Of a stretch of 42,356 nt of DNA, positions 2,006-40,242 are shown piece by piece. Made by a program: the position numbers and the translations under genes. The DNA comes from an uncultured Coriobacteriaceae bacterium. Lineage in GTDB: Bacteria; Actinomycetota; Coriobacteriia; Coriobacteriales; Atopobiaceae. Location of the stretch: contig CANEFS010000008.1 of the NCBI GenBank assembly GCA_947426865.1, positions 1-42,356 of the forward strand. Reading direction: 5' to 3'. The notes under the pieces are model-generated. The model was given only the letters and a program-made list of their open reading frames with translations, was not told the origin of the DNA and did not search any database. Every line of letters starts with the position of its first letter. Within the stretch, counting starts at the first letter, position 1.

Positions 2006-2174
2006 AGAACTCTTTCACCTTGGTTAAAACTCTTTTATCTTTGTTTTTAGTATTTTAAATTTTGGCCGTTTGATAAATGCATTTTGTTCGAAGCACTCGC
2101 TCCTATCATTTTTGTTTTCGGCGTTTTTGTTTTAACCGATATTTCTTGCTAGAATAGTTGAGCTGTTTTGGACT

Positions 2175-2249
2175 GGGCGATTGGCGCAGCGGTAGCGCAG
2201 AGCCTTTACACGGCTAAGGTCAGGAGTTCAAATCTCTTATCGCCCACCA
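2175..2249 (+). tRNA. tRNA-Val (UAC)
   Basis: A cloverleaf can be drawn. The acceptor stem GGGCGAT pairs with ATCGCCC, followed by A and an encoded CCA. The D stem is GCGC/GCGC. The anticodon loop TTTACAC has anticodon TAC at 2207-2209, reading GUA valine codons. The T arm has loop TTCAAAT. The top anticodon-stem pair is a G-A mismatch. The gene is on the plus strand between two minus-strand genes and ends 4 bp before the pheT stop codon. Confidence 0.95.
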
Positions 2250-2253
2250 TTTT

Positions 2254-8228: not shown

Positions 8229-10730
8229 TTACAGCGACAAATTGGGGTCAGCGTCCAGGGAAAGGTCGCTGAATTTCTTCTCCTTATATTCTTTCAGGCC
8301 AACCAAGGCAATCATCGCTGCATTGTCCGTACAAGCACTCATGGGAGGCACCGTGAGGGTAACGCCGTATTCTGCGAGTTTTTTCTCGTAAGCTTTACGA
8401 AGAGCAGGATTTGCGGCCACCCCTCCCCCAACGCAAAAATGGCCGACGTTGCATTCGCGCACGGCGTCAAGCGCCTTTGCCACAAGCACCTCGATAACGG
8501 CAGCTTGAAAAGAGGCGGCGACATCGTTTTTGTTGATGAGGCGCCCTTCGCGCTCTTCTTTTTCCAGATACGTCACGACCGCCGTCTTCAAACCCGAGAG
8601 CGAGAATCGATAATCGTGGCTGTACAAAAGAGCGCGTGGAAAATCAATCGCCTTTGCATTGCCTTTCTCGGCAAGCTTCGAAATAATCGGACCGCCGGGA
8701 TAGCCCAGGCCAAGCGCCTTTGCCACCTTATCGAAAGCCTCGCCCACCGCGTCGTCAATCGTCTGGCCGAGAATTTCATAGCGACCCCACGACTTTACAA
8801 ACACGAGCATGGTGTGGCCGCCGGAAACCAAGCTTGCCACAAAAGGCGGCTGCAAGCTAGGGTTTTCAAGAAGATTCGCGTAGAGGTGACCCTCAAGATG
8901 GTTCACGCCGATGAGCTTGAAGTTTCCGGCGGCGGCAAGACCTTTCGCAAAAGCGATTCCCACCACGAGCGCGCCGACAAGGCCTGGGCCCTCTGTTACC
9001 GCAACGGCTGCCAGGTCAGAGACGTCCAGGCGCTTCATGCCAAAATGACGCCCTGCCACTTCAAGCGTTTCCTGCAAAACAGCGCAAAGCGCCTCCGTGT
9101 GTTTTCTCGAGGCAATCTCGGGGACGACGCCGCCAAAGCGCGCGTGGAAATCGATTTGGGTGGAGACGACGTTGGCGATGAGGGTGCCGTGGTTGTCGAT
9201 GATGGACATGGCCGTCTCGTCGCAGGAAGTCTCGATGGCAAGCACGAGGTCGCCTGCCGCTTCAAGTTGTGTGCAAACTTCCGCCGTGCGTTCTGCCAAA
9301 AGTGCTGGTTGCGGCCAGACAAGCGCCGAGCGCACCGGCTGGGGGTCGGTGTGACTCTTAGGGATAGCCAAGGGAAGCGCAGCCTCCAAAAGAAGCGCGT
9401 CCTGGTCTTGACCGTAATAGTCGGGCCGGCGCCCAACCTCCTCAAAACCGCGCTCTTTATAAAGGGCAAGCGCCTCTTCATTTTCCGAGAAAACCTCGAG
9501 ACTCGCGCGCTCTACGCCAAACATCTGGCCATCGTAGGTGACGCGCGCCAAAAGCTTCGTCGCAATCCCTTCTCGCCTGTGAGCAGGGGAAACAGCGATG
9601 TCCAAAATTTCAAAGGAAGCGCCTGAAAGCTGAGCGCCGGCAAAGCCTACCACCTCGCCGCCCTTGTGGGCAATCCACCAACTCGTTTTCAAGTCAACAT
9701 TTTGAGGGTGCAGCGATTGCAGGAAAAGCTCGGGGCTCCAGGGAGTGTGCGCATCGTCTGCATACGTCGCCGCTTCCAATTGCGCCACGTCTGACACATC
9801 CGAAGATTTCATCGGACGGTACTGATAGGGCTCAGAGGCACTCTCCTCATCTACGCCCGTCAATGCAAAATTGTGCGGGCGCTTTTTGCCGCGCTCCTCA
9901 AGTTCATGTTCTTCCGCATCGCTTAGCCTCGTGTAAACAGGCAGCACAAGTTGCGGATTTCCAAAGGAGTGTTGAGGGGAAAAGGATTGTTTTAAAGATT
10001 GGTGCTCTTCAGATGGAGCGGCTGCTTCTTGCTCGTTTGCAGAAATCTCTCCGGAAACCCCCGACATCTCCGCCAGACCCTCAACCACGTCGCACCTAGA
10101 GAAAGCAGCATAAAGCAAACCCTCCGAGCTAGGCGCCCACAACTCCTCTTCCAAATAAAGCGAAAAGCCCGCCGCCTTAAAATCAGCGCCGAACTTCTTC
10201 AGGCCATCGCCTGTGAGCTGCAAATCTTCAAGCCCAGCATCTTTCCATTTGAGTATGCAAGCCGCAGTTTTCTCGACCGTCTCAATTTCAAACTCCCGAG
10301 AAACCCCTGTATCTTCCAGCGTATAAATACCGGGATAGACTTCGCCGCGCATTGCATCTTGCACGACCCCAAGGCGCCCGCGCACACCGGAAAGCCACGC
10401 TCGGTAAGCCACCGTATCAAGCGTCGAGGCCCCAATAAGAGGCTTGTTGGCGGCAAAGGCCAGACCCTTTGCCGTTGCGATGCCAATGCGCACGCCCGTA
10501 AACGAACCGGGTCCGCGCCCCACCACAAAAAGGTCGATGTCGGAAAAGGTGAGTCCCTGCTGGTCAAGCAGCTCTTTTGCTTTGGGGAGAAGCTCGACGT
10601 TGGCACGTCGGCGGCAAGAGGTATCCGCCTTTGTCTCAAGCTTAATGAAGGGAAGCTCTGCGAACTCCACGGAGCCCAGACCAACCACCAGCTCATCGGT
10701 TGCCGTATCGAATGCAAGAACTTTTTTCAT
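8229..10730 (-). CDS. tsaD: Three-domain fusion TsaB-RimI-TsaD
   Basis: One 833-aa chain joins three enzymes that are usually separate. Residues 1 to about 270 are TsaB (GRGPGSFTGVRIG at 71-83), the scaffold of the threonylcarbamoyl transferase complex. Residues about 303-450 are a GNAT acetyltransferase like RimI (acetyl-CoA loop RREGIATKLL; YKERGFEEVGRR). Residues about 496-833 are TsaD (AIETSCDETA; metal ligands H611 and H615 in NHLEGH; SGGHTM), which transfers the threonylcarbamoyl group to A37 of ANN-decoding tRNAs. Low-complexity linkers join the domains. The partner ATPase TsaE is at 11461, on the other strand. No strong Shine-Dalgarno is seen before the ATG. Such fusions are known in Coriobacteriia. 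Confidence 0.95.
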   Translation of the reverse strand: MKKVLAFDTATDELVVGLGSVEFAELPFIKLETKADTSCRRRANVELLPKAKELLDQQGLTFSDIDLFVVGRGPGSFTGVRIGIATAKGLAFAANKPLIGASTLDTVAYRAWLSGVRGRLGVVQDAMRGEVYPGIYTLEDTGVSREFEIETVEKTAACILKWKDAGLEDLQLTGDGLKKFGADFKAAGFSLYLEEELWAPSSEGLLYAAFSRCDVVEGLAEMSGVSGEISANEQEAAAPSEEHQSLKQSFSPQHSFGNPQLVLPVYTRLSDAEEHELEERGKKRPHNFALTGVDEESASEPYQYRPMKSSDVSDVAQLEAATYADDAHTPWSPELFLQSLHPQNVDLKTSWWIAHKGGEVVGFAGAQLSGASFEILDIAVSPAHRREGIATKLLARVTYDGQMFGVERASLEVFSENEEALALYKERGFEEVGRRPDYYGQDQDALLLEAALPLAIPKSHTDPQPVRSALVWPQPALLAERTAEVCTQLEAAGDLVLAIETSCDETAMSIIDNHGTLIANVVSTQIDFHARFGGVVPEIASRKHTEALCAVLQETLEVAGRHFGMKRLDVSDLAAVAVTEGPGLVGALVVGIAFAKGLAAAGNFKLIGVNHLEGHLYANLLENPSLQPPFVASLVSGGHTMLVFVKSWGRYEILGQTIDDAVGEAFDKVAKALGLGYPGGPIISKLAEKGNAKAIDFPRALLYSHDYRFSLSGLKTAVVTYLEKEEREGRLINKNDVAASFQAAVIEVLVAKALDAVRECNVGHFCVGGGVAANPALRKAYEKKLAEYGVTLTVPPMSACTDNAAMIALVGLKEYKEKKFSDLSLDADPNLSL

Positions 10731-17529: not shown

Positions 17530-18867
17530 TTAGCCAGCCACTTTTTCAATCGCAACGGCCACACTTTGCGCAATGCGCTTAGCGTCCTCTTTTTTCTCGG
17601 CCTCAACCATGACGCGCAGCAAAGGCTCGGTGCCGCTGGCGCGCACGAGAAGGCGGCCATTTTCGCCCAAGTCCTTCTCGGCTTGAACAATGGCGGCTTT
17701 TACGTCTGCGTTTTGGAGAGTCGCGTCTTTCTCTACCACCTCGACGTTGATGAGGGCCTGCGGGAAAAGCGTGACGGGACGGGCCAGCTCAGAGAGCGTT
17801 TCTTTCTCCGCACGCATCGCCTCCATCACGCGGAGGCTCGTCATGATACCGTCTCCTGTCTTTTCAATGTCCCCAAAGATGATGTGGCCGGACTGCTCGC
17901 CGCCCAGAGAGAGCGACTTCTCGCGCATCTTGGCGTAGACGTTTTTGTCGCCGACGTCGGTGGTGATGTAGTTGATTTTTGCGAGCTCAAGCGCCTTCAG
18001 AAAACCGAAGTTGCTCATGATGGTCGGCACGACCGTGGCCGCCGTTAAGCGACCGTGTTTGTTGAGATAGCGCCCGCAAATGTAGAGGATAAGGTCGCCG
18101 TCAATGACGTGACCATTCTCATCAACGGCCAGGCAGCGGTCGGCGTCTCCGTCGTAGGCAAACCCTACGTCAAGGCTTTGCTCGACAACGAGACGCTGCA
18201 GATTTTCGATGTGAGTGGATCCGCAATTGACGTTGATGTTGAAGCCGTCGGGTGCGGCATTGATGATGCGAACGTCTGCGCCTAGCGCGTCAAAAACGGG
18301 CTTTGCCACCGAGCTTGCTGCTCCATTTGCGCAATCAAGCCCGACTTTTACCCCTTGCAAGCTAAAGTTGGCGCTTGCAACGAGGTGAGCGATGTAGCGA
18401 TTGCGCCCCTGCATGTAGTCGATGGTGCAACCAATTTCGTCACCCGTGGCCAGCGGAATCTCGAACTTGTCGTCGATGTAGTCCTCAACTTGGCAAAGAA
18501 CATCCTCGTCCATCTTGAAACCCTCGGAATTTACCAGTTTTATGCCGTTATCCGAGAAGGGATTGTGCGAAGCGGTAATCATAATGCCGCAGTCGAACTG
18601 GCCATCCAACACCTCATAGCAGACGCCGGGCGTGGGGATGACGTGGAGCATGTAGACGTCGGCGCCACTGGCAACAAGGCCTGCGACAAGGGCAGACTCG
18701 AACATGTAGGAGGAGCGACGCGTATCTTTTCCAATTACAATGCGGGCCTTCTTACCCTTTTCAAGCCCGTAGTGCCAGCCGACGTACCGGCCAATCTTGA
18801 AGGCCTGCTCGACGTTGAGCGTCTCGTTGGCAGCTCCTCTAAATCCATCAGTTCCAAAATATTTCAT
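17530..18867 (-). CDS. glmM: Phosphoglucosamine mutase
   Basis: Converts glucosamine 6-phosphate to glucosamine 1-phosphate for UDP-GlcNAc synthesis. It shows FGTDGFRG near the N-terminus, the phosphoserine loop TASHNPFSDNGIK, the Mg-binding loop DGDADRC and the C-terminal phosphate-binding motif RASGTEPLLRVM. At 445 aa the length is right. The start ATG follows AGAGGAAAC. It is the first gene of a likely operon glmM-glmS-acpS-nnr-alr. A promoter is expected in 18868-19000, but I could not assign one confidently. Confidence 0.96.
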   Translation of the reverse strand: MKYFGTDGFRGAANETLNVEQAFKIGRYVGWHYGLEKGKKARIVIGKDTRRSSYMFESALVAGLVASGADVYMLHVIPTPGVCYEVLDGQFDCGIMITASHNPFSDNGIKLVNSEGFKMDEDVLCQVEDYIDDKFEIPLATGDEIGCTIDYMQGRNRYIAHLVASANFSLQGVKVGLDCANGAASSVAKPVFDALGADVRIINAAPDGFNINVNCGSTHIENLQRLVVEQSLDVGFAYDGDADRCLAVDENGHVIDGDLILYICGRYLNKHGRLTAATVVPTIMSNFGFLKALELAKINYITTDVGDKNVYAKMREKSLSLGGEQSGHIIFGDIEKTGDGIMTSLRVMEAMRAEKETLSELARPVTLFPQALINVEVVEKDATLQNADVKAAIVQAEKDLGENGRLLVRASGTEPLLRVMVEAEKKEDAKRIAQSVAVAIEKVAG

Positions 18868-19169: not shown

Positions 19170-19320
19170 ATGATCCCCAAGCAACTGAGGCCTTTTCACT
19201 TCGACTTGTTTTTTGGAAGAGTTTCTGTGTTTCAAGAAAGAACGGTTTATGCTCCCCGACATGGCAACGTAGATGATAAAAAAGCCTTTACGCGTTCAGA
19301 AAAAACTGGAAACGCACAAC
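19170..19320 (+). pseudogene. Possible decayed fourth copy of the secreted paralog, inverted
   Basis: On the plus strand the translation contains RSEKTGN at about 19289-19313, a signature shared by all three minus-strand paralogs. The DNA there (GCGTTCAGAAAAAACTGGAAAC) matches paralog A at 19 of 22 positions. About 33 residues earlier is FHFDLF, spaced roughly as RFEFEF is in the paralogs. The rest is not alignable by eye and the C-terminal block is replaced by the terminator. It may be a degraded, inverted copy; chance similarity is not excluded. Confidence 0.3.
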
Positions 19321-19360
19321 AAAACGGGCCCGAGATTTTCTTCTCGGACCCGTTCTTTTT
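19321..19360 (-). terminator. Hairpin terminator after secreted paralog A
   Basis: Stem AACGGG-CCGAGA pairs with TCTCGG-CCCGTT, with one C/A mismatch and a loop TTTTCT. It lies about 100 bp after the paralog A stop on the minus strand. The plus-strand side has a T-rich tail (TTCTTTTT), so it may act in both directions. The inner stem is an inverted pair of the common TCTCGG motif. Confidence 0.75.
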
Positions 19361-19460
19361 AAAGGAGATTGTTAGAGGCTGCTCGATACTATTTTGCTAT
19401 GTTTCTAAAAAATACTAATAAAAAAATTCGTAGGAAAAGAAGTTAGATTCTTTGCAAAAT

Positions 19461-20198
19461 TTAAAGCGGTCTCATCCATATAACCATATATAACTCTATG
19501 TTATCCCCCGGATTGGCAACGTGCATAGAGGCTCCGTGGTTGACACCATCAGCCGTTATATAGTTTCCTGTTTTTTCAGAGCGCATGGCGACTTTCCAGA
19601 CTTGGGCTCCTACCTGCAAACAATCAATAGAAGAAGGAAAAGAGAAATCATGTTCACCGCAATACTCAAGAAATTGAAATTCAAATCGTTGCCAATCCTT
19701 ATCCCCAGAATAAAATTTGGAAGTGCCACGCAATTTTTTGCCGGCGTCTCCTGATTTGTCGGCCACTTCAAGCATCTTAAAGATGTTCTTGTTGCCTTTT
19801 GAATCATCCATGAGGGTGTAGGCACTATTGCCCCACTTTCCCTGATAACGGTTTGAGTCCTTTGGATGAAAGCGGGGAACCGTAAGCTTTAAATCCGAAA
19901 TTCCATCGCCGCGGAAAGAATGGGTTGAGCACGCGGGTGAGTGGTTTGAAGCACCATTATTATTGATGCCTAATGAATACCAGCCATGTGAGGACAAATC
20001 GTAGTTTACAAGAGCTGGATCACCCGCAATCAGAGCAAAATTACAATTTGATATATCCACTTCGCCTGCATTCGCTTTGTTAACAGGAAAGAACGAGAAA
20101 GCCATGATAAGACCGAGAACGACGCCGAAAAGGCCGCCGACTCTACGGGTAAGTTTCTTCTCTTTTTGCAGTTTCTCTTGGAACTTTTGAAGTTTCAC
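19461..20198 (-). CDS. Secreted protein of unknown family, paralog A
   Basis: I do not recognise this family. The N-terminus is basic (KLQKFQEKLQKEKKLTRR), followed by a hydrophobic segment GGLFGVVLGLIMAFSFF and a likely signal peptidase site after ANA, giving a mature protein of about 205 aa with no anchor or sorting signal. Three blocks are shared with the two paralogs: the N-terminal NNGASNHSPA region; the central VPRFHPK, YTLMDDSKGNKN, RGTSKFYSGDKDWQRFEF region; and the C-terminal RSEKTGNYITADGVNHGASM region. Unlike paralog C it has several Cys in the mature part, so disulfides are possible. The GTG at 20198 was chosen because it aligns with the paralog starts and follows AAAGGAAG. The frame also continues up to an ATG at 20243. 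Confidence 0.8.
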   Translation of the reverse strand: MKLQKFQEKLQKEKKLTRRVGGLFGVVLGLIMAFSFFPVNKANAGEVDISNCNFALIAGDPALVNYDLSSHGWYSLGINNNGASNHSPACSTHSFRGDGISDLKLTVPRFHPKDSNRYQGKWGNSAYTLMDDSKGNKNIFKMLEVADKSGDAGKKLRGTSKFYSGDKDWQRFEFQFLEYCGEHDFSFPSSIDCLQVGAQVWKVAMRSEKTGNYITADGVNHGASMHVANPGDNIELYMVIWMRPL

Positions 20199-20254
20199 TG
20201 TTGCTTCCTTTCTTTTGGTTTTTTTGTTCATTTGCATATCCAAATGATAGAAGA

Positions 20255-20283
20255 AGTTTAGACGTTCTTGGGGTCCATTTCAA
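20255..20283 (-). promoter_or_regulatory. Predicted promoter of paralog A
   Basis: On the minus strand, TTGAAA (20278-20283) and TAAACT (20255-20260) are separated by exactly 17 bp, a near-consensus housekeeping sigma promoter. Transcription would begin about 50 bp before the GTG start. Confidence 0.6.
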
Positions 20284-20323
20284 TAGAAAAAAATGCAAAA
20301 TCGCGCCCAAAGCCGATCGCAAC

Positions 20324-20361
20324 AAAACGGGCCCGAGTTTTTCTTCTCGGACCCGTTGTTT
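20324..20361 (-). terminator. Hairpin terminator after secreted paralog B
   Basis: Nearly the same hairpin as at 19321-19360: AACGGG-CCGAG pairs with CTCGG-CCCGTT, with a C/A mismatch and a T-rich loop. It lies about 65 bp after the paralog B stop. Both copies share the flank CAACAAAACGGGCCCGAG, which suggests the terminator was duplicated with the genes. Confidence 0.75.
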
Positions 20362-20423
20362 TGGAACAGGTCTTGAAATAATTTATGAGCCTTTTCTTCG
20401 CAAATCTTAAGAAAGCAAGAGAA

Positions 20424-21176
20424 TTAATAAATGCAGTGCTCCGACGCCCAAACAATCATCCATAAATCTGTGTTTTCTCCAGAATTGGCAACGTGCATAG
20501 AGGCTCCGTGGTTGACACCATTAGCCGTTATATAGTTTCCTGTTTTTTCAGAGCGCATATGGACCTTATAAAGATGCCCGTCTATATAATGATGTTCATG
20601 CTGACCGTCGGCCGTTACTTCAAAGGTGAGTATTCCTCTATCTTCAGCAAACTCAAACTCAAATCGTTGCCAGTCTTTATCCCCAGAATAAAATTTGGAA
20701 GTGCCTCGCAATTTCTTGCCTGCATCTCCGGATTTATCGGTCACTTCAAGCATTTTAAAGGTGTTTTTGTTGCCAAAGGAATCATCCATCAAGGTGTAGG
20801 CTCTGTTACCATACTTTCCATTGTAGGATTTTCCGCCCTTTGGGTGAAAACGCGGTACACTGAGGTTGTAGCCCCACCCATCGGAAGTTCGAGACATATC
20901 ATGGGTTGCTTCTGCAGGTGAGTGATTAGTAGCGCCATTATTTTTGATGCCCAATGCACAGCCACAGTTGACAAGATTGTAATGTGCAACCGCTGGGTCG
21001 CCAGCAAGAAGAACAAAGTCTTCATTTGACAAATCCACGTCTAAGGCCTGCGCTTGATTAGCAGGAAAGAATGAGAAGGCCATAATAAGACCGAGCACAA
21101 CCCCAAAAAGACCGCCGGCTCTTCGAATAAGCTTCTTTTCATTGCTCAGTTTCTCTTTTAATTTCCGAAATTGCAT
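20424..21176 (-). CDS. Secreted protein of unknown family, paralog B
   Basis: A 250-aa paralog of the genes on either side, family not recognised. It has a basic start (MQFRKLKEKLSNEKKLIRR), the hydrophobic segment GGLFGVVLGLIMAFSFF and a predicted signal peptidase cut after AQA. The mature protein begins LDVDLSNEDF. The conserved blocks NNGATNHSPAEATH, VPRFHPKGGKSYNGKYGN, YTLMDDSFGNKN, KFYSGDKDWQRFEFEF and RSEKTGNYITANG follow. There is a His-rich patch (HEHHYIDGH) near residue 190. The ATG follows GGAAGGGGACTGGA. It starts 33 bp after the paralog C stop and is probably transcribed with it. Part of its 3' end is almost identical to paralog A, and a nearby part to paralog C. Confidence 0.8.
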   Translation of the reverse strand: MQFRKLKEKLSNEKKLIRRAGGLFGVVLGLIMAFSFFPANQAQALDVDLSNEDFVLLAGDPAVAHYNLVNCGCALGIKNNGATNHSPAEATHDMSRTSDGWGYNLSVPRFHPKGGKSYNGKYGNRAYTLMDDSFGNKNTFKMLEVTDKSGDAGKKLRGTSKFYSGDKDWQRFEFEFAEDRGILTFEVTADGQHEHHYIDGHLYKVHMRSEKTGNYITANGVNHGASMHVANSGENTDLWMIVWASEHCIY

Positions 21177-21209
21177 TCCAGTCCCCTTCCTTCAGTTTTT
21201 TTGTTGGAA

Positions 21210-21965
21210 TTAATAAACTTTATGAGGTTTCGACCAAACGACCATCCACAAATCTATATTATCTTCAGGTCGAGCAATCCGCATAGGATTTCCATTTTGA
21301 GTGCCAAGGCTCGCAATATAGTTCCCTGTCTTCTCAGAGCGCATATGGACCTTATAAAGATGCCCGTCTATGGATTTAGCCTGGCCGAATTTGCCTACGT
21401 AAAAAGATTTAACGCCACTGTCTTCAATGAACTCAAACTCAAATCGTTGCCAATCCTTATCTCCAGAATAAAACTTGGAAGTACCACGCAGTCTCTTGCC
21501 TGCATCTCCTGATTTATCGGTCACTTCAAGCATTTTAAAGATGTTTTTGTTGCCATAAGAATCATCCATGAGGGTGTAGGCTCTGTTGCCGTACTTTCCA
21601 TTGTAGGATTTTCCGCCCTTTGGGTGAAAACGGGGAATATCGACACTGTAATCACCGAACATTGTACTCCAGTTGGGCAAGCCATGGGTAGCCTGAGCAG
21701 GAGAATGGTTTGTAGCGCCGTTATTGTGAATACCTAAGGCCTTCCAATCAGAGTGACTTTCAAAGTCATAGTTGATATCCGCGGGGTTGGCACCGAGCAG
21801 AATGAAGTCTTCATCAGAAATATCGACATCTAAAGCATTCGCTTGATTTGCGGGAAAAAACGAAAAGGCCATAACCAGACCGAGAACAACACCAAATAGG
21901 CCACCGATTCTACGGGTAAGTTTCTTCTCATTGTGGAGCTTCTCTTTGAACTTCTGAAATTTCAC
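21210..21965 (-). CDS. Secreted protein of unknown family, paralog C
   Basis: A 251-aa member of the same unrecognised family, first of the C-B pair. It has basic residues 1-19, the signal segment GGLFGVVLGLVMAFSFF and a cut after ANA, giving mature LDVDISDEDFILL. Shared blocks are NNGATNHSPAQATH, IPRFHPKGGKSYNGKYGN, YTLMDDSYGNKN, KFYSGDKDWQRFEFEF and RSEKTGNYI. It has no Cys in the mature part. The start is GTG with AAAGGAAG in front. The GTG overlaps the TGA of a 13-codon upstream frame. A near-consensus promoter lies at 22027-22055. The family has no anchor, so free secretion is inferred; the target is unknown. Confidence 0.8.
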   Translation of the reverse strand: MKFQKFKEKLHNEKKLTRRIGGLFGVVLGLVMAFSFFPANQANALDVDISDEDFILLGANPADINYDFESHSDWKALGIHNNGATNHSPAQATHGLPNWSTMFGDYSVDIPRFHPKGGKSYNGKYGNRAYTLMDDSYGNKNIFKMLEVTDKSGDAGKRLRGTSKFYSGDKDWQRFEFEFIEDSGVKSFYVGKFGQAKSIDGHLYKVHMRSEKTGNYIASLGTQNGNPMRIARPEDNIDLWMVVWSKPHKVY

Positions 21966-22003
21966 CTTTGCTTCCTTTCTTTAAGTTCCTTAGTTTTTTT
22001 CAT
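21962..22003 (-). CDS. Possible 13-codon leader ORF overlapping paralog C start
   Basis: A minus-strand mini-ORF, MKKTKELKERKQR, begins at ATG 22003-22001. Its TGA overlaps the GTG start of paralog C (GTGA overlap). It is very Lys/Arg-rich. In paralog A the matching sequence (MNKKTKRKEAT) is fused in frame. It may couple translation or only be the A-rich leader holding the ribosome site. Confidence 0.3.
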   Translation of the reverse strand: MKKTKELKERKQR

Positions 22004-22026
22004 TTGTTTATTCAAATGAGGCTCTA

Positions 22027-22055
22027 AGTATAAATATTTATGCCGTCTGTTGCAA
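22027..22055 (-). promoter_or_regulatory. Predicted promoter of paralogs C and B
   Basis: On the minus strand, TTGCAA (22050-22055) and TATACT (22027-22032) are separated by 17 bp. It lies just downstream of the rpsI terminator, about 60 bp before the paralog C start, so C-B has its own transcription unit. Confidence 0.65.
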
Positions 22056-22224: not shown

Positions 22225-22638
22225 CTAGCGCTTCGAGAACTGCGGGCGCTTGCGGGCCTTTTTCAGACCGTACTTCTTACGCTCGACCGCACGAGCGTCA
22301 CGCGTCAAGAATCCGGCATGCTTCAGGTCGTGGCGGTAATCGCCGGCGTCGAGAAGGGCGCGCGAAATACCCAAACGGACAGCTCCGGCTTGGCCGGAAA
22401 TGCCGCCGCCCGTGCAGGTGACGATGACATCGTATTGCTTTTGCGTGTCGGTAACTTTGAAAGGCGCGAGGGCTGTATCGACAAGTTGCTGGCGCCCAAA
22501 ATAGGCAAGAGCATCTTTTCCGTTGACGACAAATGCCCCTTTACCTGGTGCAAGACGCACGCGGGCAATCGCCTCTTTACGACGGCCGGTTCCGTAATAG
22601 AGCGTCCCGTTCTTCTTTTTACTCGTTTTAGCTGGCAT
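22225..22638 (-). CDS. rpsI: 30S ribosomal protein S9
   Basis: Small-subunit protein S9, whose basic C-terminal tail reaches the P-site tRNA. It has the family opening [16 protein letters not shown] and the ending [12 protein letters not shown], with [20 protein letters not shown] in the middle. At 137 aa the length is normal, with a short Lys-rich N-terminal extension. It starts immediately after the rplM stop, the usual rplM-rpsI pair, and is followed by a strong terminator. Confidence 0.98.
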
Positions 22639-23076
22639 TTATGCCTCCAGATTGATTTTCTCGGGATTTTGAGCAGCATGAGGATGCTCAGATCCGGCGT
22701 ACACTTTCAGTTTCGAAAACTGCTTGCGGCCCAGCGTGTTGTGGGGAAGCATTCCCTTGACGGCGTGCTCGATGACGCGCTCCGGGTGCTTTTCCATAGC
22801 CTCCTGGAAGCTTTCCGTCTTGAGTCCGCCCAGGTAACCTGAGTAACGCCAGTATTCCTTTTGTAGCGCTTTGTTGCCGGTAAGCTGGACCTTATCGGCG
22901 TTGATGACTACAACGAAATCCCCCGTATCAGTGTTGGGCGTAAATTGCGGCTTGTTCTTTCCGCGCAAAATGTCAGCAACGCGCGTTGCAAGGCGGCCAA
23001 GAACGGCACCGTCGGCGTCGATAAGCACCCATTTACGTGCTACTTCGCCTGGTTTTGCATATTGAGTCGATTTCAT
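22639..23076 (-). CDS. rplM: 50S ribosomal protein L13
   Basis: Large-subunit protein L13, an early assembly protein binding 23S rRNA. Motifs are [42 protein letters not shown] and [10 protein letters not shown]. The frame extends 21 codons further, but the ATG at 23076 has AAGGAGT in front and gives the usual 145 aa. It heads the rplM-rpsI operon. Its promoter would lie in the 72 bp after the patatin gene, where TACAAT at about 23145 is a possible -10 without a good -35. Confidence 0.97.
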
Positions 23077-23148
23077 GTGGACTCCTTCTTTTCCTACATC
23101 TTTTGTGAGTTTACGGGGCTCTGCAAAAGAAGCACGCACGATTGTACA

Positions 23149-30629: not shown

Positions 30630-32852
30630 TCATAAAACCCCGAGCAATTTTTTTACAGAAATAGTAAGCGGGATTTTGATAGAGGTGCCGGGGATGGGAA
30701 GGTCGGCAATAGAAATCTCTTCTTCGCCAAACGACTCGCTCACTTGTCGAGAAAAACTCGCCAAAAGGTCACCCAGACTGCCCGAACTTGGAAGAGCTTG
30801 GACGACATCGGACATGCGACTGATGTCGAATCCATCTTTGCTCAGTATGTCTTGCGTATTGCAAAGAACCGGCTTTCTTAAACGCAAATCTGCGGGCTCT
30901 AACCCCAGTGCCGAGACAATGGAGGACAACTTGTTCGAGAGCCAACCCGCCAACGGACCCGCGGCCGCCGCCCTCAGCCCATCAAAAAGTGAATTGCCCA
31001 CGTCGCTGATCTTCCCGAAACCTGCTTGGTAACCCACGAGAAGACTGGACCAAACGCCGCAAATTCCGTCGAAGATAGAGCCCAATGCCCCACCAAAATC
31101 TTCGTCTTCTGTAGCATCGGCCGCTTTCGTGCCCTCGAAAAAGCGCGCGAGGACGGTGTTCTCGGCAGAGTTCGCATCGACCGCCAGCGTGGCCCCTGCT
31201 ATGGCAACACCTTCAGGAAGCGGCTGCGTTTTCGAAAATGCCGTCTCGAGGGCTTGCGGCAAATCGGTCTCGCCCCTTACCACGACTCCAATCACACCCC
31301 ACGCTCCCGGTGGACAGATGCGGGGCCGCTTGACCCCCAGCGCCTTGATTGCCTTGTCAAAAGCGTCGGCACCTTCCTCTGCAAGCCCCTTCATCTCTTT
31401 CATTTCCTGCTCGTACTTGTTTTTTGCGTCTTGATATTTCTTCGACTCCTCGACGACGATACGCCAATAATGCTCGTAGCCATTGTTTATATTCGTCGAG
31501 GCAGACGCAGTCTTTCCCATCGCGGCCACGTCAAACTGGCAGACCGAACAAAGGCCGAACCCGACGCTTTCCGCCTCACTCAGCGTCGCGCTCCCACTCA
31601 GTCCGTGCGCCCCCGGGCAGGCGCTGTAGGCATGAAGGATGCTTTGGCCTCCTTCGCTACTTTTGGGCCAGGTCGTCTCCGAGAAAAGCTTGCTCGCTTT
31701 GGTTTCCTCCGTATTGTGCGGAAGGTCGGGAAGCGATAAGGAAACGGTGCCATCCGCGTTTTCGATGTAGTAGCCCGCTTGCATTTCTTTGGCTGCAAAC
31801 TGATAGAAGGCCTTTCGCATGGCGGAGTTTGACTGCTCCTCCACCGAACTTGTTGCGGCAGTTTCTAGAGCTGCGCGTGCCTGATAATAGGCGCGGCTTC
31901 TCGAAAGAGCGACCCCAAACGACCAGTTATCAGGAATGGCGTAGTGGGGATTTTGGGCAGGACTTAAATGCGCAAGAGAATCTGCTCTCGAGCGCATGCA
32001 ATACGGGTCGTCGATGCAATCTGCGCGCCAGGCGCGTTCCTGCGCCTCTTTCATCTCCTTCTGGTTCGCTTCGGCCTCTGCCGATTTTTTTGCGAGCGCG
32101 TCACTTTTCTCTTCCAAATCTTTCGTATCGAGAGAATCTCCTAAATCGTATTGTGAGAGCGAGCTTTCCGGGAAGGGTATGCCCGTGCCAAGATAGTTCA
32201 GATTCCCTTCACTGTTTGCTGCGGTGGTCGCAAAGGCATTGATTGCAATTGCTGCTGGCAAGAGTTTCTCGAGTTTTTCAAGTCCGGAAGCGGCACTTTT
32301 TGCAAAGTCAGAGCGACTTTTAAGGATCTTTGCGCCCGCTTTCGTGAGAGAGACGCCGGCTTCCTGGAGACCAGGAACAGCGCTCGTGATAAGGCCTGCC
32401 CCCAAAACGAACATGCCGGTCAGCCCCAGTGTTAAGACGCATGCATCGCTCACCTGAGCCACCGTTGTAAACGCTTTAACGTCCTGCTCGCCTGATAGGG
32501 CGGCCGCATCAGCTACGTTTTGAATATCTGCCGCCTTTGAGGACGACCACTGCACCGCCACGAGACCAAACATCAAAACGAGGCTCACGACAAGAGCCAG
32601 ACCCACCGTAATTGAGGTGTAACCATCCTCTTCTAAAAAGAAATCAAGAGGACCTTGAATGCTGCGAGCCTTTGAAAGAATACGGCGGCTTCTTCGCCTG
32701 ACTCTGAATCCGCGGCGAACCTTGAACTCATTTTTTCGACGAAAACCGCTGTTGGCTCCCCGTGCGCGTTTTTCTAGGAATTTGAAGTTGTTTAATGACT
32801 TGTTTAGTCTCCCCATGCTCCTACCCAACTGTCGTAGTCTCCTGAGACCCAT
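30630..32852 (-). CDS. TadG-like pilus-associated membrane protein
   Basis: Large 740-aa protein. The first ~75 residues are strongly Arg/Lys-rich. The next segment, DGYTSITVGLALVVSLVLMF, is the single N-terminal helix of the TadE/TadG class, but without the Glu at +5 of true pilins, and is followed by VQWSSSKAADIQNVADAAALSG, typical of TadG-like proteins. The long external part has a possible coiled coil (about residues 245-285) and several Cys, and no domain I can name. The start overlaps the preceding TadE-like gene by 49 bp. An internal ATG at 32816 would cut the overlap to 13 bp, but its ribosome site is too close. Confidence 0.82.
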   Translation of the reverse strand: MGLRRLRQLGRSMGRLNKSLNNFKFLEKRARGANSGFRRKNEFKVRRGFRVRRRSRRILSKARSIQGPLDFFLEEDGYTSITVGLALVVSLVLMFGLVAVQWSSSKAADIQNVADAAALSGEQDVKAFTTVAQVSDACVLTLGLTGMFVLGAGLITSAVPGLQEAGVSLTKAGAKILKSRSDFAKSAASGLEKLEKLLPAAIAINAFATTAANSEGNLNYLGTGIPFPESSLSQYDLGDSLDTKDLEEKSDALAKKSAEAEANQKEMKEAQERAWRADCIDDPYCMRSRADSLAHLSPAQNPHYAIPDNWSFGVALSRSRAYYQARAALETAATSSVEEQSNSAMRKAFYQFAAKEMQAGYYIENADGTVSLSLPDLPHNTEETKASKLFSETTWPKSSEGGQSILHAYSACPGAHGLSGSATLSEAESVGFGLCSVCQFDVAAMGKTASASTNINNGYEHYWRIVVEESKKYQDAKNKYEQEMKEMKGLAEEGADAFDKAIKALGVKRPRICPPGAWGVIGVVVRGETDLPQALETAFSKTQPLPEGVAIAGATLAVDANSAENTVLARFFEGTKAADATEDEDFGGALGSIFDGICGVWSSLLVGYQAGFGKISDVGNSLFDGLRAAAAGPLAGWLSNKLSSIVSALGLEPADLRLRKPVLCNTQDILSKDGFDISRMSDVVQALPSSGSLGDLLASFSRQVSESFGEEEISIADLPIPGTSIKIPLTISVKKLLGVL

Positions 32853-33355
32853 TCGGGCCTCAAAATTTCTTCTGCCTTTGCCACAAGCTCCCCTTCGGAA
32901 TTTCCCTCGCCCACGAGAGCGACGCTAAACAATCCAAAAAGAGGAAGTGGCTTAAATTTCCCCTTCACCTCTACCGAGGAAAGCTTCTCCGACTCGTTTG
33001 CATCAACGCTCACTTGCCAGCCATCCTCTCCGCCCTCATGAAAGATTGAGAGGTTAGGCACAGCCCTTAGGCGGCGCTTCACAAATGACTCGATTTCTGC
33101 AGCCGAGGTTCGCGAGCTTTGCGTCGCAACGACGCGTACTCCTTCAGCAGCTGCCGCATTCATCACCGAACGCGTATAAAAAATGCAGGCGGGCTGCGCC
33201 ATCATGCCAATCACAAAAAGAAGAGAGGGTAAAAGGATGGCCGCCTCCACACTTGATTGGCCGGATTCTAGTTCTGCACGGAAAAGGGCTGTTGCCGTTT
33301 TTGCCGCTTGCCGATTGCTTCTTTTAAGCTTCTTCTTTTTAATAAAGCAACGCAT
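32804..33355 (-). CDS. TadE-like pseudopilin
   Basis: A 183-aa protein with a short basic start (MRCFIKKKKLKRSNRQ) and the prepilin-like motif SGQSSVEAAILLPSLLFVIGMM, with Glu at +5, then an external domain of about 120 aa containing FYTRSVMNAAAAEGVRV, a pattern common in TadE proteins. The frame could start 36 codons earlier, but the ATG at 33355 overlaps the preceding gene by only 17 bp, like its neighbours. It is the second of three TadE-like genes. Confidence 0.83.
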   Translation of the reverse strand: MRCFIKKKKLKRSNRQAAKTATALFRAELESGQSSVEAAILLPSLLFVIGMMAQPACIFYTRSVMNAAAAEGVRVVATQSSRTSAAEIESFVKRRLRAVPNLSIFHEGGEDGWQVSVDANESEKLSSVEVKGKFKPLPLFGLFSVALVGEGNSEGELVAKAEEILRPEWVSGDYDSWVGAWGD

Positions 33356-33590
33356 CTTGCACCATTCCCAAAATCGAAATCCCCGAGGTATGCGAAGCAG
33401 CTTCTGTTCCAAGGCGCACGAAGACCCCATCAGCGCCAGCTTGAAAGATGACGATAAGGGCAATCACCATCGCAAGAAGAGCACAAAAGACAAGCACGAA
33501 CTCTGTCGTTGATTGGCCTTTTTCTTCTTGCAAAAATGCCACGACGCAACGTCTGCGCTTCTCCCTTCTCTGATGCTTAGGCTGCCGCAT
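33339..33590 (-). CDS. Small TadE-like pseudopilin
   Basis: An 83-aa protein with a basic N-terminus, the motif KGQSTTEFVLVFCALLAMVIALIVIF (Glu at +5), and only about 35 residues after the helix. It resembles a Flp or TadE prepilin reduced to the helix and a short tail, so it may be a minor pilin. The ATG follows AAGGATTGGG. It overlaps its upstream neighbour by 14 bp and its downstream neighbour by 17 bp, so the genes are probably translationally coupled. Confidence 0.8.
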   Translation of the reverse strand: MRQPKHQRREKRRRCVVAFLQEEKGQSTTEFVLVFCALLAMVIALIVIFQAGADGVFVRLGTEAASHTSGISILGMVQDALLY

Positions 33591-34104
33591 TTTCCCAATC
33601 CTTTTGCAGCAGCCGATAGTTTTCTTGGAGAGTTGCGTTGTCTTTCTCGGAAAATATTGAAAGCGTAACGCCCTGCGGATCTTTTAGAAGGCACCCCCAG
33701 GAATTTCCAAACAGCCCAAAATATCCCTGATAAAGGAGGATGCTCTCGCCTGCGCTTTTCTCGCTCTCAAGATAATTCTCAACACACGTTGTGAGGACCT
33801 CGTCCTTCTTCTCCGTCGAAACCTTTATCTTGCCGTCGCCAAAGGCGTTGGTCAGAAGATCCTCGGCCTCTTTAATCTGTTCTCTATTTGCTCCTTGACT
33901 TGCTTCGAACTCTTTCAGCAACTCCTCTTTCGTTTGCAAAAAAGTTGAATCCTCTGTACTCAGGCTGTCTTCCTCCCCATGACTTGCGTTGACTTGAGAA
34001 AAAATCAAAGCAGCAAAAAGAACGATGAAAGCTGCGAGCACGATAAAGATAGGCAGCTTTTTTGGCTCCCTTTTTTTGAAATGTCTTGCTTTCGAAAAAC
34101 TCAT
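33577..34104 (-). CDS. Membrane-anchored protein of unknown function in tad operon
   Basis: A 175-aa protein with a basic cytoplasmic start, one membrane helix (IFIVLAAFIVLFAALIF, about residues 18-34) and an external Glu/Lys-rich domain with two Cys (TTCVENYL and SWGCLLKDP) that could form a disulfide. No family is recognised. The ATG at 34104 overlaps the flp stop as ATGA, a classic coupled start; an earlier ATG at 34137 lies inside flp. Its place right after flp suggests a role in pilin handling or pilus assembly (inference). Confidence 0.75.
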   Translation of the reverse strand: MSFSKARHFKKREPKKLPIFIVLAAFIVLFAALIFSQVNASHGEEDSLSTEDSTFLQTKEELLKEFEASQGANREQIKEAEDLLTNAFGDGKIKVSTEKKDEVLTTCVENYLESEKSAGESILLYQGYFGLFGNSWGCLLKDPQGVTLSIFSEKDNATLQENYRLLQKDWENAAA

Positions 34105-34367
34105 AGTGAGTTGATTCCATCTGCAATAGAGTTCCAAAGTTCCGAGATTTTGTCTTTGAAGGCAATGACGGCGACGATGGCGATAAGGACCAGGACACCC
34201 ACAAGGATGGCGTATTCGGTCGTGCCTTGGCCCTTCTCTTCTGCAAAGCGTCTCAGGCCGTTGCTCACTTTATCGCGAATCCAGCCTCCGTTTACTCTGC
34301 TGCGGATCCAGCCACTGTTCACTTTGTCGCGGCTCCAGCCCCCCCGTAAAAACTTTTTAATTTTCAT
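34101..34367 (-). CDS. flp: Flp-type major pilin with repeat-containing leader
   Basis: Pilin subunit of the Tad pilus. The prepilin motif EKGQGTTEYAILVGVLVLIAIV has processing between G46 and Q47, with the conserved Glu at +5 and Tyr at +6. The mature peptide of 42 aa ends DKISELWNSIADGINSL. The leader is unusual: 46 residues instead of the usual under 20, made of three imperfect 9-11 residue units (GGWSRDKVNS, GWIRSRVNG, GWIRDKVSNG). AGGAG before the ATG is the best ribosome site of the operon, fitting high expression. Confidence 0.92.
   Translation of the reverse strand: MKIKKFLRGGWSRDKVNSGWIRSRVNGGWIRDKVSNGLRRFAEEKGQGTTEYAILVGVLVLIAIVAVIAFKDKISELWNSIADGINSL
34260..34345. repeat. About 30-bp tandem repeats in the flp leader
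   Basis: Three imperfect copies of a 27-30 bp unit encode the GWIRDKV-like repeats in the Flp prepilin leader. They lie directly after the fourth codon group of flp. Copies differ by several bases. Confidence 0.75.
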
Positions 34368-34416
34368 TCTTTCTCCTCTCTCTACTTACTATTGCTGCTT
34401 TACGTGTCACTACCTG

Positions 34417-35259
34417 CTATTTCACGACCAGTGCTGAAGATAGAAGTGGCCCTAAAATTGCGATGAGCATCGCAGGCACCACGAAGATGCCCATGGGGAT
34501 AAGCATTTTTACGGGGACCTTCTCGATAGCTTCTTCCACCTGAAGACGTTGCTCGCGTCGAATCTCCGAGGCCTGGCGCATCAGCGTTTCCGAGAGAGGC
34601 ATACCGAACTCGAGAGATTCCGTTACTGCAATCGAAAAACGTGTAAACGCCGGAACCTGCACTTTAAGCGCACAGTAATCCAGTGCCTGCGCCCTGTTTT
34701 CCAGGCCAAGTTTCCAAACCATCAAAGAGTACTTGAGCAAGTGCGATAAAACGGACTGATAACGACGTATGTAAAGTTCTAGTGAACTATCAAAACTGAG
34801 ACCAGCGTTCAGGCCTAGCGTCATGATGTCGAGCATCTCGGGAAAATCATTAAGACATCTCTGGCGCAGCTCAGTTCGCTTTTGTTCTGCGTAAAATGTT
34901 TCAAAAATCCACGTCCGAACCGTGAGTAAAGGAGGTGCGATAGCTTGGAGCGAAAAAGGCGCTTCGTGCGAAGGCATAGTAATATTTTCATCTTGAGGCT
35001 TCACCCGAGAAAGGCCCAAAAGAGCCAGTTCATCCCCTGTATTATTTTTTTGAAAATCTTTTTCAGCAACTTCTGGGTCTTTCTCGCTGATGGCCTGTAC
35101 ATCCGGCCTAGCTATGAGAGAACCAGCCTCATAAGGGTTTTTCGAGGTAGCTTCCTCCGAAATTTTTTTCCTGCGAGGAACTGCCTTCTTTTGAAAGACG
35201 ATTCCATACACAAGGAGCAACACGCTTGTACCGATTATGAGTAAAAGAAATGCATCCAC
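34417..35259 (-). CDS. tadC: Tad pilus inner-membrane platform protein TadC
   Basis: Type II secretion F-domain protein that forms the membrane platform with TadB. There is an N-terminal membrane helix (FLLLIIGTSVLLLVYGIVF), a polar region of about 75 aa, then the T2SF domain with DFPEMLDIMTLGLNAGLSFDSSLE and FGMPLSETLMRQASEIR. The C-terminal helix is KMLIPMGIFVVPAMLIAIL. At 280 aa the length is typical. The start is GTG with AAGGAAGAG before it. It follows tadB by 81 bp. Confidence 0.9.
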   Translation of the reverse strand: MDAFLLLIIGTSVLLLVYGIVFQKKAVPRRKKISEEATSKNPYEAGSLIARPDVQAISEKDPEVAEKDFQKNNTGDELALLGLSRVKPQDENITMPSHEAPFSLQAIAPPLLTVRTWIFETFYAEQKRTELRQRCLNDFPEMLDIMTLGLNAGLSFDSSLELYIRRYQSVLSHLLKYSLMVWKLGLENRAQALDYCALKVQVPAFTRFSIAVTESLEFGMPLSETLMRQASEIRREQRLQVEEAIEKVPVKMLIPMGIFVVPAMLIAILGPLLSSALVVK

Positions 35260-35340
35260 TTTTCTCTTCCTTCTTATCTTTGGGGGCTGTCAAGCTCTCA
35301 GCTCTTCACCTCAAGCAGTCCTAAGTTCAAATTCATCTTT

Positions 35341-36261
35341 TTAAAGAGTTACGCTCGCCATAATCTTTCTCATGCTGATAAAGGCAATCCCGTCTAAAAC
35401 AACTGCTATGCAGATAGAGACAATTCCTATAACGCTCATAACGCCTGAGCGAAAATCAGGAGAGATAAGCGTCAAAAACAGGACGAGGAGCACCGGCAAG
35501 ATCATGACAACCTGGGCAGAGAAGCGCACCTGCGCTGTTTTCGTAGAAAGCAGCTGCTTAAGATTCGATTCATCCTCCACCATCTGCGCCCCGTTTTCAA
35601 GGAGGTTAGCAAGAGGAGCACCTGTTCTTTGCGATATTTGAAGAACGCAGCTCAGAAGCGTGAGGGAAGGAATTTGAAAAGACAGGGCAATATTGTCGAG
35701 CGCAACAAAAGGATTCTCTCCGCAGTTAATAGAGAGGGCGGCAGAGGCGAAAGCCTTCGCAATCCTACCTTTTCCCCGCTTTCCCACATAACCTATAGCC
35801 TGCGTTAAAGTCTGGCCAGAAGAAAGGGAGCCGCTCAGCATCCTAAAAATCTGAGGAACTTCTTTTACCAACTCTTCTCTTTGACGCTTCTTAATAACAT
35901 CAGCCAGGAAGGGAATGCTGACAAGCCCAACCGTTATACCAAACAGGAAAAAGAAAGGATTCAACGTAAAGAGAAAAAAGATAGCACCCAAGCCAAATAG
36001 AAGCAGGCTAATAAAACCCGAGATGTCTCCCGGTGTAAATAATTCAAAAAATACAATATCACGCGTTTTTTGCCATACAAATAAATTCAGCGTCTTGAAT
36101 CCTTTAATCTCCTGAAGAAGTGCAATGAAGGATTGCTGCCCCAATTTCCTTGAAATGTGCAAAAGGAACGATTGCGTTTTAGGAAGCGCAAGCGTTTTGC
36201 CGGTCAAAAAGATCAGGGCAAGCGCCGCAAAGAAGGGAATCAGAAAGAAGCTAATTGCCAT
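35341..36261 (-). CDS. tadB: Tad pilus inner-membrane platform protein TadB
   Basis: T2SF-domain membrane protein, partner of TadC and the ATPase CpaF. It has an N-terminal helix, two adjacent central helices (about residues 75-120), the domain signature QIFRMLSGSLSSGQTLTQAIGYVG, and C-terminal helices including VVMILPVLLVLFLTL. At 306 aa the length is normal. The ATG lies inside the cpaF end (22-bp overlap) behind GAGAGAGG. Confidence 0.9.
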   Translation of the reverse strand: MAISFFLIPFFAALALIFLTGKTLALPKTQSFLLHISRKLGQQSFIALLQEIKGFKTLNLFVWQKTRDIVFFELFTPGDISGFISLLLFGLGAIFFLFTLNPFFFLFGITVGLVSIPFLADVIKKRQREELVKEVPQIFRMLSGSLSSGQTLTQAIGYVGKRGKGRIAKAFASAALSINCGENPFVALDNIALSFQIPSLTLLSCVLQISQRTGAPLANLLENGAQMVEDESNLKQLLSTKTAQVRFSAQVVMILPVLLVLFLTLISPDFRSGVMSVIGIVSICIAVVLDGIAFISMRKIMASVTL

Positions 36262-37613
36262 TTTTCAACCTCTCTCCTCGCCAAGCGTTTTTCAAGCACA
36301 GCCTCTTCAATAAAGGCGGGAATGCTTTCTAAGTGCCAGGTTTTCTCGGCTTCCGAAAAAGACACAACAGGCTCTAGCAAAAGCGATCCATCTTTTCCCC
36401 TTGAGACCTGACTCATAGACGTAATAAGGCGCTTTCCATCTCCGTAGCGCTTGCCCATCACCACAAAATCGAGCGCGGTTATTACCTGCTCCTCAATCAA
36501 ATTTGCAGGAAGATCCATGCCAAATCGCGCCATTAAGATAAGGCGAGAGATTGCCTCCTCGGCCGTTCCTGCATGAAGGGTCGTGAGTGAGCCGTCATGC
36601 CCTGTGTTCATAGCTTGGAGCATGTCGATGGCTTCTTCTCCGCGAACCTCCCCCACAACAATACGGTCAGGGCGCATGCGCAAAGCATTTATCACAAGGT
36701 CGCGAATGCTCACGCACCCCTTCCCCTCAATAGAGGCACTCCTCGCCTCAAGCCGAACGACGTGGGGGTGTGTCTCAAACGAGAGCTCAGCCGAGTCTTC
36801 AATCGTAACGATACGCTCGGTTTTAGGAATCTCAAGCGAAAGCGCGTTCAAAAGGGTCGTCTTGCCTGAACCCGTGCCACCCGCTACCGCAATATCTTTT
36901 CTAAAGCGCACGGCCCAGCTTAAAAGTTGCGCAAACCAGGCAGGCAGCGAGTCCAACTCCACCAGGCGTTTAAGAGAGGTGATGCGCCCGGTAAAACGCC
37001 GAATCGTCAAAGCGGGGCCTTCCAGGGCAATAGGAGAGATGACGACGTTCACGCGGTCGCCGGTGGCCAAGCGCGCGTTGACGATAGGGCTCGCCTCGTC
37101 CAGGCGTCTCCCCAAAGGAGCAAGAATACGGTCGATAACCAGCATAATTTGGTCAACCGAATCAAAGACTTTCTCAGATTGATAGAGCTTGCCACCCTTC
37201 TCAAAAAAGAGATTCTGCGGCCCGTTCACCATAATTTCTGTCACCTGGGCATCGTCCATAAAAGGCTGCAAAACTCCAAGGCCCATGATCTCGTTTAAGA
37301 CCTCGGTCACCAACTCCTTTTTTTGCGCGGCCGAGAAATTCGAAAACTCAGCCCCAAGCAACACATCGTTAGCCGCCGCCGTCAGCTCACGCGCGGCGCG
37401 CTTCTGATTCTCAAAATCCAGCAAATCCGCAGTAAGGGTCAAACCGAGCCTCTCAACTGTTTTTTTACGTAGCAGCTCCCTCTTCTCTTTCCACTCCTCT
37501 TTTTCCCGAGAAGAACTCGCCGCAAGAAAGCCATTGGAGGGAGAAGGAGAGGACGCTGCCTTTTCTCCGTTTGTGTTTTGTTCTGCGGCAAGAACCCGCT
37601 CCAAAACTCCCAT
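36240..37613 (-). CDS. cpaF: Tad pilus assembly ATPase CpaF/TadA
   Basis: Hexameric secretion ATPase powering pilin polymerisation. Walker A GGTGSGKT starts at 245, Walker B region RIVVGEVRGEEAIDML at about 318-333, and the His-box NTGHDGSLTTLHAGT follows. The Asp box (VTIEDSAELSF) is present. At 457 aa it has a Ser-rich N-terminal extension of about 40 aa. The start ATG follows directly on the cpaE stop. Confidence 0.96.
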   Translation of the reverse strand: MGVLERVLAAEQNTNGEKAASSPSPSNGFLAASSSREKEEWKEKRELLRKKTVERLGLTLTADLLDFENQKRAARELTAAANDVLLGAEFSNFSAAQKKELVTEVLNEIMGLGVLQPFMDDAQVTEIMVNGPQNLFFEKGGKLYQSEKVFDSVDQIMLVIDRILAPLGRRLDEASPIVNARLATGDRVNVVISPIALEGPALTIRRFTGRITSLKRLVELDSLPAWFAQLLSWAVRFRKDIAVAGGTGSGKTTLLNALSLEIPKTERIVTIEDSAELSFETHPHVVRLEARSASIEGKGCVSIRDLVINALRMRPDRIVVGEVRGEEAIDMLQAMNTGHDGSLTTLHAGTAEEAISRLILMARFGMDLPANLIEEQVITALDFVVMGKRYGDGKRLITSMSQVSRGKDGSLLLEPVVSFSEAEKTWHLESIPAFIEEAVLEKRLARREVEKWQLASF

Positions 37614-39428: not shown

Positions 39429-39429
39429 G

Positions 39430-40149
39430 CTATGCGCCTTCCTGTGTTTCGGGCTCTTGATTTTCGGTTTCGCTGGGAACGGAGGTAACGTTTCTTGAGG
39501 CGGCAGGATCGTCTAAGGAGGAGATATCGTCGGCCGGACGCACCAAACGCAACGTGGAATCGCTCGCCGAGCTCATCAAGTCCGCCACCTCTTCAAGAGG
39601 AACAGCTATCGTGATTGATCCTTTGTTGGTCGAAGAAGAGGTTGTAGGAACAGATAGCACAACAACGTTCGAGCTAATCAGATACGTTCTCCCCTCGTTC
39701 ACTTTATATGCAGCCAAATTGGCGCCAATCTCCACAGACGAGGTCACGCCTAGGCGTTCATTCAAAGGAATTGCGATGGCCACTTTTCCGGAAGGGACCT
39801 CCATACCATCATCGTTTCCTCGGATGTTCACGGAGCATATAGGGCTTCCTTTCGAGACGGGCGTGCCGATTGTTTTATTGCCGAGTTCTTGTAAGGATTT
39901 GAAGGCGCCCTCGGGAACAAGCTCTGAGAGCCATTCGCGCTCTTCAGCTTTCGCAGCGGTGATGCTGTCGCCCGGCTCAAGCGTCGTTGTTGCTACGACG
40001 ACTTTTGTCACTTCGCCGCCGTAGCGCGCCATGGCTTCTGTTTTTTCGGCCTGGGCTTCTGCGCGCACAGCGTTTCCGTAAGCAAGCGCGCAAAGAACGG
40101 CCAAGGATGCACAGGCGCAAGCCATTATTATGCGAAACCGTTTGTTCAT
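39430..40149 (-). CDS. cpaB: Tad pilus assembly protein CpaB/RcpC (SAF domain)
   Basis: A 239-aa protein with an N-terminal membrane helix (IIMACACASLAVLCALAYG), then an SAF domain (VVVATTTLEPGDSITAAKAEER, GTPVSKGSPICSVNI) and the RcpC-like C-terminal part (KVAIAIPLNERLGVTSSVEIGANL). The tail is acidic and low complexity. In Gram-negative Tad systems CpaB works at the secretin; here, without one, it probably acts at the wall. The ATG at 40149 was chosen over ones at 40233 and 40185 because the helix follows it directly. It is the first gene of the tad operon. Confidence 0.85.
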   Translation of the reverse strand: MNKRFRIIMACACASLAVLCALAYGNAVRAEAQAEKTEAMARYGGEVTKVVVATTTLEPGDSITAAKAEEREWLSELVPEGAFKSLQELGNKTIGTPVSKGSPICSVNIRGNDDGMEVPSGKVAIAIPLNERLGVTSSVEIGANLAAYKVNEGRTYLISSNVVVLSVPTTSSSTNKGSITIAVPLEEVADLMSSASDSTLRLVRPADDISSLDDPAASRNVTSVPSETENQEPETQEGA

Positions 40150-40242
40150 CTGTTTTAGGTGCCTCTCTTTTTCTGGAGCAAACATCACGCAGAAAATCGC
40201 ATGCGTTTGCTCGTATGAAAATGTGAAGCACATGATTGCAGG

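Follow-up and report, generated by a model that had tools for sequence, protein, structure and literature searches.

What kind of protein is encoded by the three closely similar genes that lie between glmM (17530-18867) and rpsI/rplM (22225-23139), and do they form a local triplication or part of a larger set? The window, i.e., the whole stretch of 42,356 nt that was analyzed, is one contig (C8) of a genome of 1,039,461 bases in 29 contigs with a completeness of 94%. Its glmM is nearest to that of Atopobiaceae, such as Kribbibacterium absianum (79%) and Olsenella, and most other genomes of this family measure 1.4-3.1 Mb, versus 1.04 Mb here; the organism is a small-genome and probably host-associated member of the Atopobiaceae. 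The window also contains a Tad/Flp pilus-type locus (30630-40233, minus strand; TadE/G-like, two T2SSF, T2SSE ATPase, and CbiA/ParA-like), which accords with a surface-associated life but is no evidence of linkage to the three genes, and an 833-aa open reading frame (ORF; 8229-10730, minus strand) in which TsaB, RimI-like acetyltransferase, and TsaD regions are fused.

The preliminary description of this locus reported three adjoining minus-strand genes for secreted proteins of about 250 aa, and the lengths of 245, 250, and 251 aa (w1, w2, and w3, respectively; see the table) bear this out. Protein identity to w1 is 64% for w2 and 61% for w3, and the motifs described as common to the array, YTLMDDS, KFYSGDKDWQRFEF(E/Q)F, and RSEKTGNYI, are present in all three. 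The linking regions, said to differ, do so and fall into two separate variable segments, the second of which has a recombination breakpoint at its border. The longest ORF of w1 begins at 20243, i.e., 5' of its GTG start at 20198. Family genes are AT-rich (GC 0.44 versus 0.52 for the window), and cysteines sit outside the conserved core (positions 52, 90, 180, and 193 in w1; 71, 73, and 248 in w2; 185, 197, and 244 in c2, a copy on another contig). A plus-strand ORF adjoining the array (19170-19418) carries RSEKTGN, shows no further likeness to the family by eye, and is probably a chance occurrence.

Table. Coordinates of family genes and associated features (window positions unless a contig is named)
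Feature	Location	Strand	Description
w3	21210..21965	-	251 aa; lead gene of w3-w2 operon
w3 signal peptide	21834..21965	-	44 aa; invariant RR and GG; cleavage expected after ANA
w3 conserved core	21429..21635	-	PRFHPK...WQRFEFEF, residues 111-179; hardly any third-position differences from C15 copies throughout, up to its end
w3 hypervariable V2	21354..21428	-	After FEFEF up to YKVHMRS; pN ~ pS versus other copies
w3 putative sigma-70-type promoter	22027..22055	-	TTGCAA-17-TATACT; layout as before w1, c15a, c15b, c12, and c2
w3 inverted repeat	22001..22018	-	CATTTG-AATAAA-CAAATG; 8 nt past -10 hexamer
w2	20424..21176	-	250 aa; start 33 nt past w3 stop
w2 signal peptide	21045-21176	-	Same type, from sequence
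Hairpin and T-run after w2	20320..20362	-	43 nt, terminator-like; repeat family D4
w1	19461..20198	-	245 aa from GTG aligned with other copies' starts
w1 signal peptide	20067-20198	-	Same type, from sequence
w1 putative sigma-70-type promoter	20255..20283	-	TTGAAA-17-TAAACT
w1 inverted repeat	20229..20246	-	CATTTG-GATATG-CAAATG
Hairpin and T-run after w1	19317..19359	-	43 nt, terminator-like; 95% identical to that after w2; D4
c15a	C15:298-1059		Family profile
c15b	C15:1299-2060		Family profile; open past usual stop
c12	C12 at 12869		Family profile
c2	C2:629-1360		Family profile
Degenerate copy	C15, about 2153-2620		Family profile

A search of the genome with the family profile retrieved seven intact copies, spread over four loci, as well as a degenerate one, and the intact copies all have profile E-values of 1e-139 or below, far beyond chance. 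The triplication first proposed holds for the window, where three genes stand in tandem, but four further intact copies occur at three other loci, plus the degenerate one; what is repeated is a promoter-gene-terminator cassette dispersed over the genome, with mosaic recombination between copies, rather than a triplicated locus. Three contig ends coincide with flanks of family cassettes over exactly 55 nt: the left end of C15 with the 5' flank of w3, and one end each of C17 and C5 with the 3' flank of c2. Overlaps of this exact size between a contig end and another contig are a mark of de Bruijn short-read assembly and would be expected where a k=55 assembly graph branches, so that further cassettes are probably missing and the family likely comprises more copies than were assembled. 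Two peculiarities were also observed at contig level: c15b (C15 1152-2060, minus strand) lacks the usual stop and gains ~46 aa through its own terminator hairpin region, and the end of contig C2 (1-382, minus strand), adjoining c2, carries a reading frame with one internal stop and no Pfam match.

All family copies begin with a 44-aa N-terminus of signal-peptide type, featuring an invariant RR and GG, a hydrophobic stretch, and an A-x-A end, which precedes a mature protein of ~205 aa. The shared signal peptide claimed for the array genes is thus plain from the sequence in seven of seven intact copies, and the N-terminus was not found elsewhere in the genome at E<0.2. Judging from this feature, the proteins are probably secreted. 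The genome encodes TatC; a role as Tat substrates was rejected, as the S/T-R-R-x-F-L-K motif is not matched (the invariant RR is followed by x-G-G), and Sec export appears more likely. The family sequences have no visible cell-wall anchor or lipobox, which argues for proteins that are freely secreted rather than held at the surface.

Searches for relatives yielded a consistent picture. Pfam, NCBIfam, PHROGs, PADLOC, and PDB sequences gave no credible match to single sequences or to the alignment, in agreement with the initial view of an unrecognized family, and nothing credible from a characterized secreted family emerged from the profile search. Pumilio matches were rejected because only a 22-residue word is in common, and DUF4425 (PDB 2lrg and 3u6g) gave a weak profile match over 68 positions (E 0.2, not significant) with no motif in common. 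No relatives were detected in 139 other genomes of the family Atopobiaceae, 396 other genomes of the order, or 395 other genomes of the phylum sample (overlapping sets of 140, 397, and 396 genomes, each including the source genome), and a pattern scan of 84,980 GTDB species found no other genome with the family. IMG/VR and the phage and plasmid collections likewise held no relative; as none lies on a phage, plasmid, or viral contig, an identity as known phage or plasmid cargo was rejected. Among all collections searched, only the source genome carries the family, one genome rather than the few related hosts envisaged at first, which supports the lineage-specific distribution suggested earlier, with the proviso that such collections may omit very near genomes, that the genome searches covered about half of GTDB species, and that a sister species may carry the family. 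Literature searches, one topic being genome reduction in Atopobiaceae and the other gene conversion among secreted paralogs, brought up nothing about it. At the corresponding locus, the distance between rpsI and glmM was measurable in 47 relatives; it stays within 500 bp in 41 of them, and in the other six the gap holds 1.1-6.5 kb of unrelated genes, which points to a recurrent insertion site. The six long gaps contain no family member by tblastn, and their ORFs are unrelated by eye.

Lead genes, which account for six of the seven intact copies, each have a putative sigma-70-type promoter consisting of TTG---, a 17-nt spacer, and then TATACT, TAAACT, or TACAAT, and no family-type promoter precedes w2. 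Although the promoter scan count (8 versus 5.2 expected) is by itself not above chance, the family promoters are credible because they recur at the same place and spacing at six genes. An inverted repeat, CATTTG-N6-CAAATG, is situated at the lead genes 8-9 nt past the second hexamer, at the expected transcript start. The exact repeat occurs at five sites in the genome, all before family genes; it has one mismatch at C12 and two at C2. Matches with two mismatches are mostly background (58/54 against 71/67, reversed-pattern control), so that only the exact repeat is informative. This element could act as an operator or as an mRNA 5' hairpin. Hairpins with T-runs also follow the C15 copies and C12, in addition to those after w2 and w1. 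A consensus terminator scan does not list the two window hairpins, and Rfam gave only a weak match on the array (E 0.31, below the gathering score), located at the terminator hairpin after w1.

The mature protein is organized in the order V1, core, V2, and C-terminal block, and these segments differ in the substitutions they have accumulated. In the core, pN is 0.02-0.16 and pS mostly 0.24-0.62 (about 0.5), with lower values among w3, c15a, and c15b. In V1 (61-66 codons compared per pair), pN reaches 0.26-0.39 and pS 0.51-0.85, with synonymous sites near saturation; these figures leave out the comparisons among w3, c15a, and c15b, which are identical to each other there. In V2 (21-27 codons), pN is 0.38-0.68 and pS of similar size, and length changes occur as well. 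The contrast, drawn from few copies of which three have a common 5' half, indicates that the core is under purifying selection and that the variable stretches are under none such, consistent with the division into conserved blocks and variable stretches initially drawn. Change in V2 fits relaxed or diversifying evolution, pN ~ pS alone being no proof of positive selection; its dN/dS is near 1 and not clearly above 1, as an unconstrained linker would give likewise.

Mosaicism is evident from the distribution of identical stretches. A run of 396 nt, reaching from within the signal peptide (most of which it includes) through V1 into the core, is identical in w3 (21938-21543), c15a, and c15b; past the core/V2 border, these three are as different as other copies, with a V2 DNA identity of 32-44% in a 20-codon window at its start. 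Third-position differences rise from 4/178 to 33/66 after codon 179 between w3 and c15a, from 5/182 to 33/62 at codon 183 between w3 and c15b, and from 1/168 to 32/79 at codon 169 between c15a and c15b. These three main breakpoints have permutation p<=0.003 (the limit of 300 shuffles; chi-squared 74-90). Further signals come from other pairs, such as the breakpoint between w2 and w1 at codon 212, where differences fall from 98/202 to 6/37 (p<=0.007), all values being per pair and uncorrected over 21 pairs. In part of the C block, the latter two genes reach 98% identity, far more than upstream of it. On C15, an exact 853-nt tandem repeat runs from the C-terminal block of one copy across terminator and promoter into the N-terminal half of the following copy, as expected of unequal crossing-over; the order degenerate copy, c15b, c15a would be the only path through the repeat loop if each branch is used once. 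Because the assembly appears to be built from short reads, neighbors across shared stretches could be swapped, and the partners of w3 are exchangeable at the 396-nt stretch; under both joinings, the same V1 occurs with several V2s, and the mosaicism itself is independent of how the assembly joined neighbors. Mosaic exchange between copies, a feature of gene-conversion repertoires, was thus found (codons 169-183; exact stretches of 396 and 853 nt), and the alignments indicate that recombination has paired one V1 with different V2s. A RecA gene is present in the genome, and its product may be the recombinase.

The explanation judged to have about an even chance of being correct is that the family consists of lineage-restricted secreted binding proteins diversified by homologous recombination between cassettes. 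A constant core would carry V1 and V2, which most likely would form the binding surface and determine specificity; each lead gene has a promoter-gene-terminator cassette of its own; and crossovers in the conserved core and C-terminal block would pair existing V1s with different V2s. Homologous recombination between cassettes would also duplicate units in tandem, and the repertoire of binding proteins would thereby diversify in a small-genome, probably host-associated bacterium. Selection on the core, V1/V2 reassortment, the presence of RecA, and a dedicated control element all fit a binding repertoire, and no homologue, confident structure, or functional neighbor favors any specific role, including the host contact, competition, or ligand capture mentioned at the outset. 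A more specific form of this explanation, whose probability is not to be added to those of the other readings, proposes beta-trefoil lectin-like proteins of the fascin/MIR/ricin-B shape that would bind mucus or cell glycans via V1 and V2. Two AlphaFold runs on the sequences of w1, w2, and w3 gave beta-rich models of low confidence (mean pLDDT 48.3 and 45.8; pTM 0.56 and 0.58) that are best in the C-terminal third. The C-terminal block YKVHMRSEKTGNYITANGVNHGASMHVANSGENTDLWMIVW, inspected by eye, looks like a single beta-trefoil repeat, and a MIR domain has the highest TM-score for both models among the 50 PDB matches listed (6zqq, 0.28; 6zqp, 0.30), which also include IL-1 beta, Kunitz inhibitors, clitocypin, and fascin. 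Nevertheless, neither model has a significant Foldseek match in the PDB (best E 0.29 and 0.74), the matches listed also include B30.2 and further beta folds, two putative repeats score 6.6 in hhalign against a shuffled mean of 7.9 (thin alignment), and lectin families give no sequence match. Compared with MIR, fascin, and ricin-B proteins, the family offers one motif-like block and a weak, non-significant structural likeness, with no sequence match or detected internal repeat, and a trefoil fold remains rather doubtful.

Other readings account for part of the same evidence. Antigenic variation, in which exposed antigens recombine for immune escape and copies are silent or alternately expressed, would account for a constant frame with variable segments, for mosaic gene conversion, and for a degenerate copy. 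Yet every intact transcription unit has its own promoter, the predicted layout being the same at six of six lead genes, and no single expression locus fed by silent donors was found; together with the lack of a visible anchor or lipobox, this makes antigenic variation unlikely. The low GC content, single-genome distribution, tandem repeat, and degenerate copy could also reflect a selfish or neutral expansion of AT-rich orphan cassettes that were duplicated by unequal crossing-over and have little function. Such an origin is considered very unlikely because the core is under strong purifying selection even between copies that have diverged widely at synonymous sites, seven reading frames are intact, and all lead genes have kept the promoter architecture. 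Least probable is a toxin role, in which the secreted proteins would be antibacterial toxins or bacteriocins of polymorphic specificity. Fast diversification among secreted paralogs, in a member of a gut-dwelling family, would suit this role, but neither w1-w3 nor the C12, C15, and C2 loci have a visible small immunity gene next to them, and toxin or defense models gave no match.

Should the binding-repertoire explanation hold, a small-genome lineage of Actinomycetota keeps a dedicated, recombining set of secreted orphan proteins, which would be a place to seek new proteins that bind host glycans, mucus, or competitors and would test how combinatorial diversity arises outside the well-known pathogen examples. 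The dedicated control element also makes co-regulation of all copies directly testable. A bolder proposal, more speculative still than the trefoil fold, is a combinatorial system in which pools of V1 and V2 on a fixed scaffold are reassorted in the core under a common dedicated inverted repeat; if true, it would represent an undescribed kind of bacterial secreted-protein repertoire.

Several known systems invite comparison. Neisseria pilE/pilS, Mycoplasma vlhA, and Treponema TprK are gene-conversion repertoires with variable segments in a constant frame, and, as in the present family, segments are exchanged between copies by homologous recombination. Unlike them, the family has lead copies with their own promoters, no single expression site, and no visible anchor, and no kinship to any known family was found. 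The staphylococcal superantigen-like (SSL) cluster is a secreted paralog array with one scaffold and varied ligand sites. It has no sequence relation to the family in Pfam, NCBIfam, or PDB, and the copies described here are mosaic within one genome; what the two have in common is an arrangement of small secreted proteins, both tandem and dispersed, that would present diversified surfaces on one scaffold.
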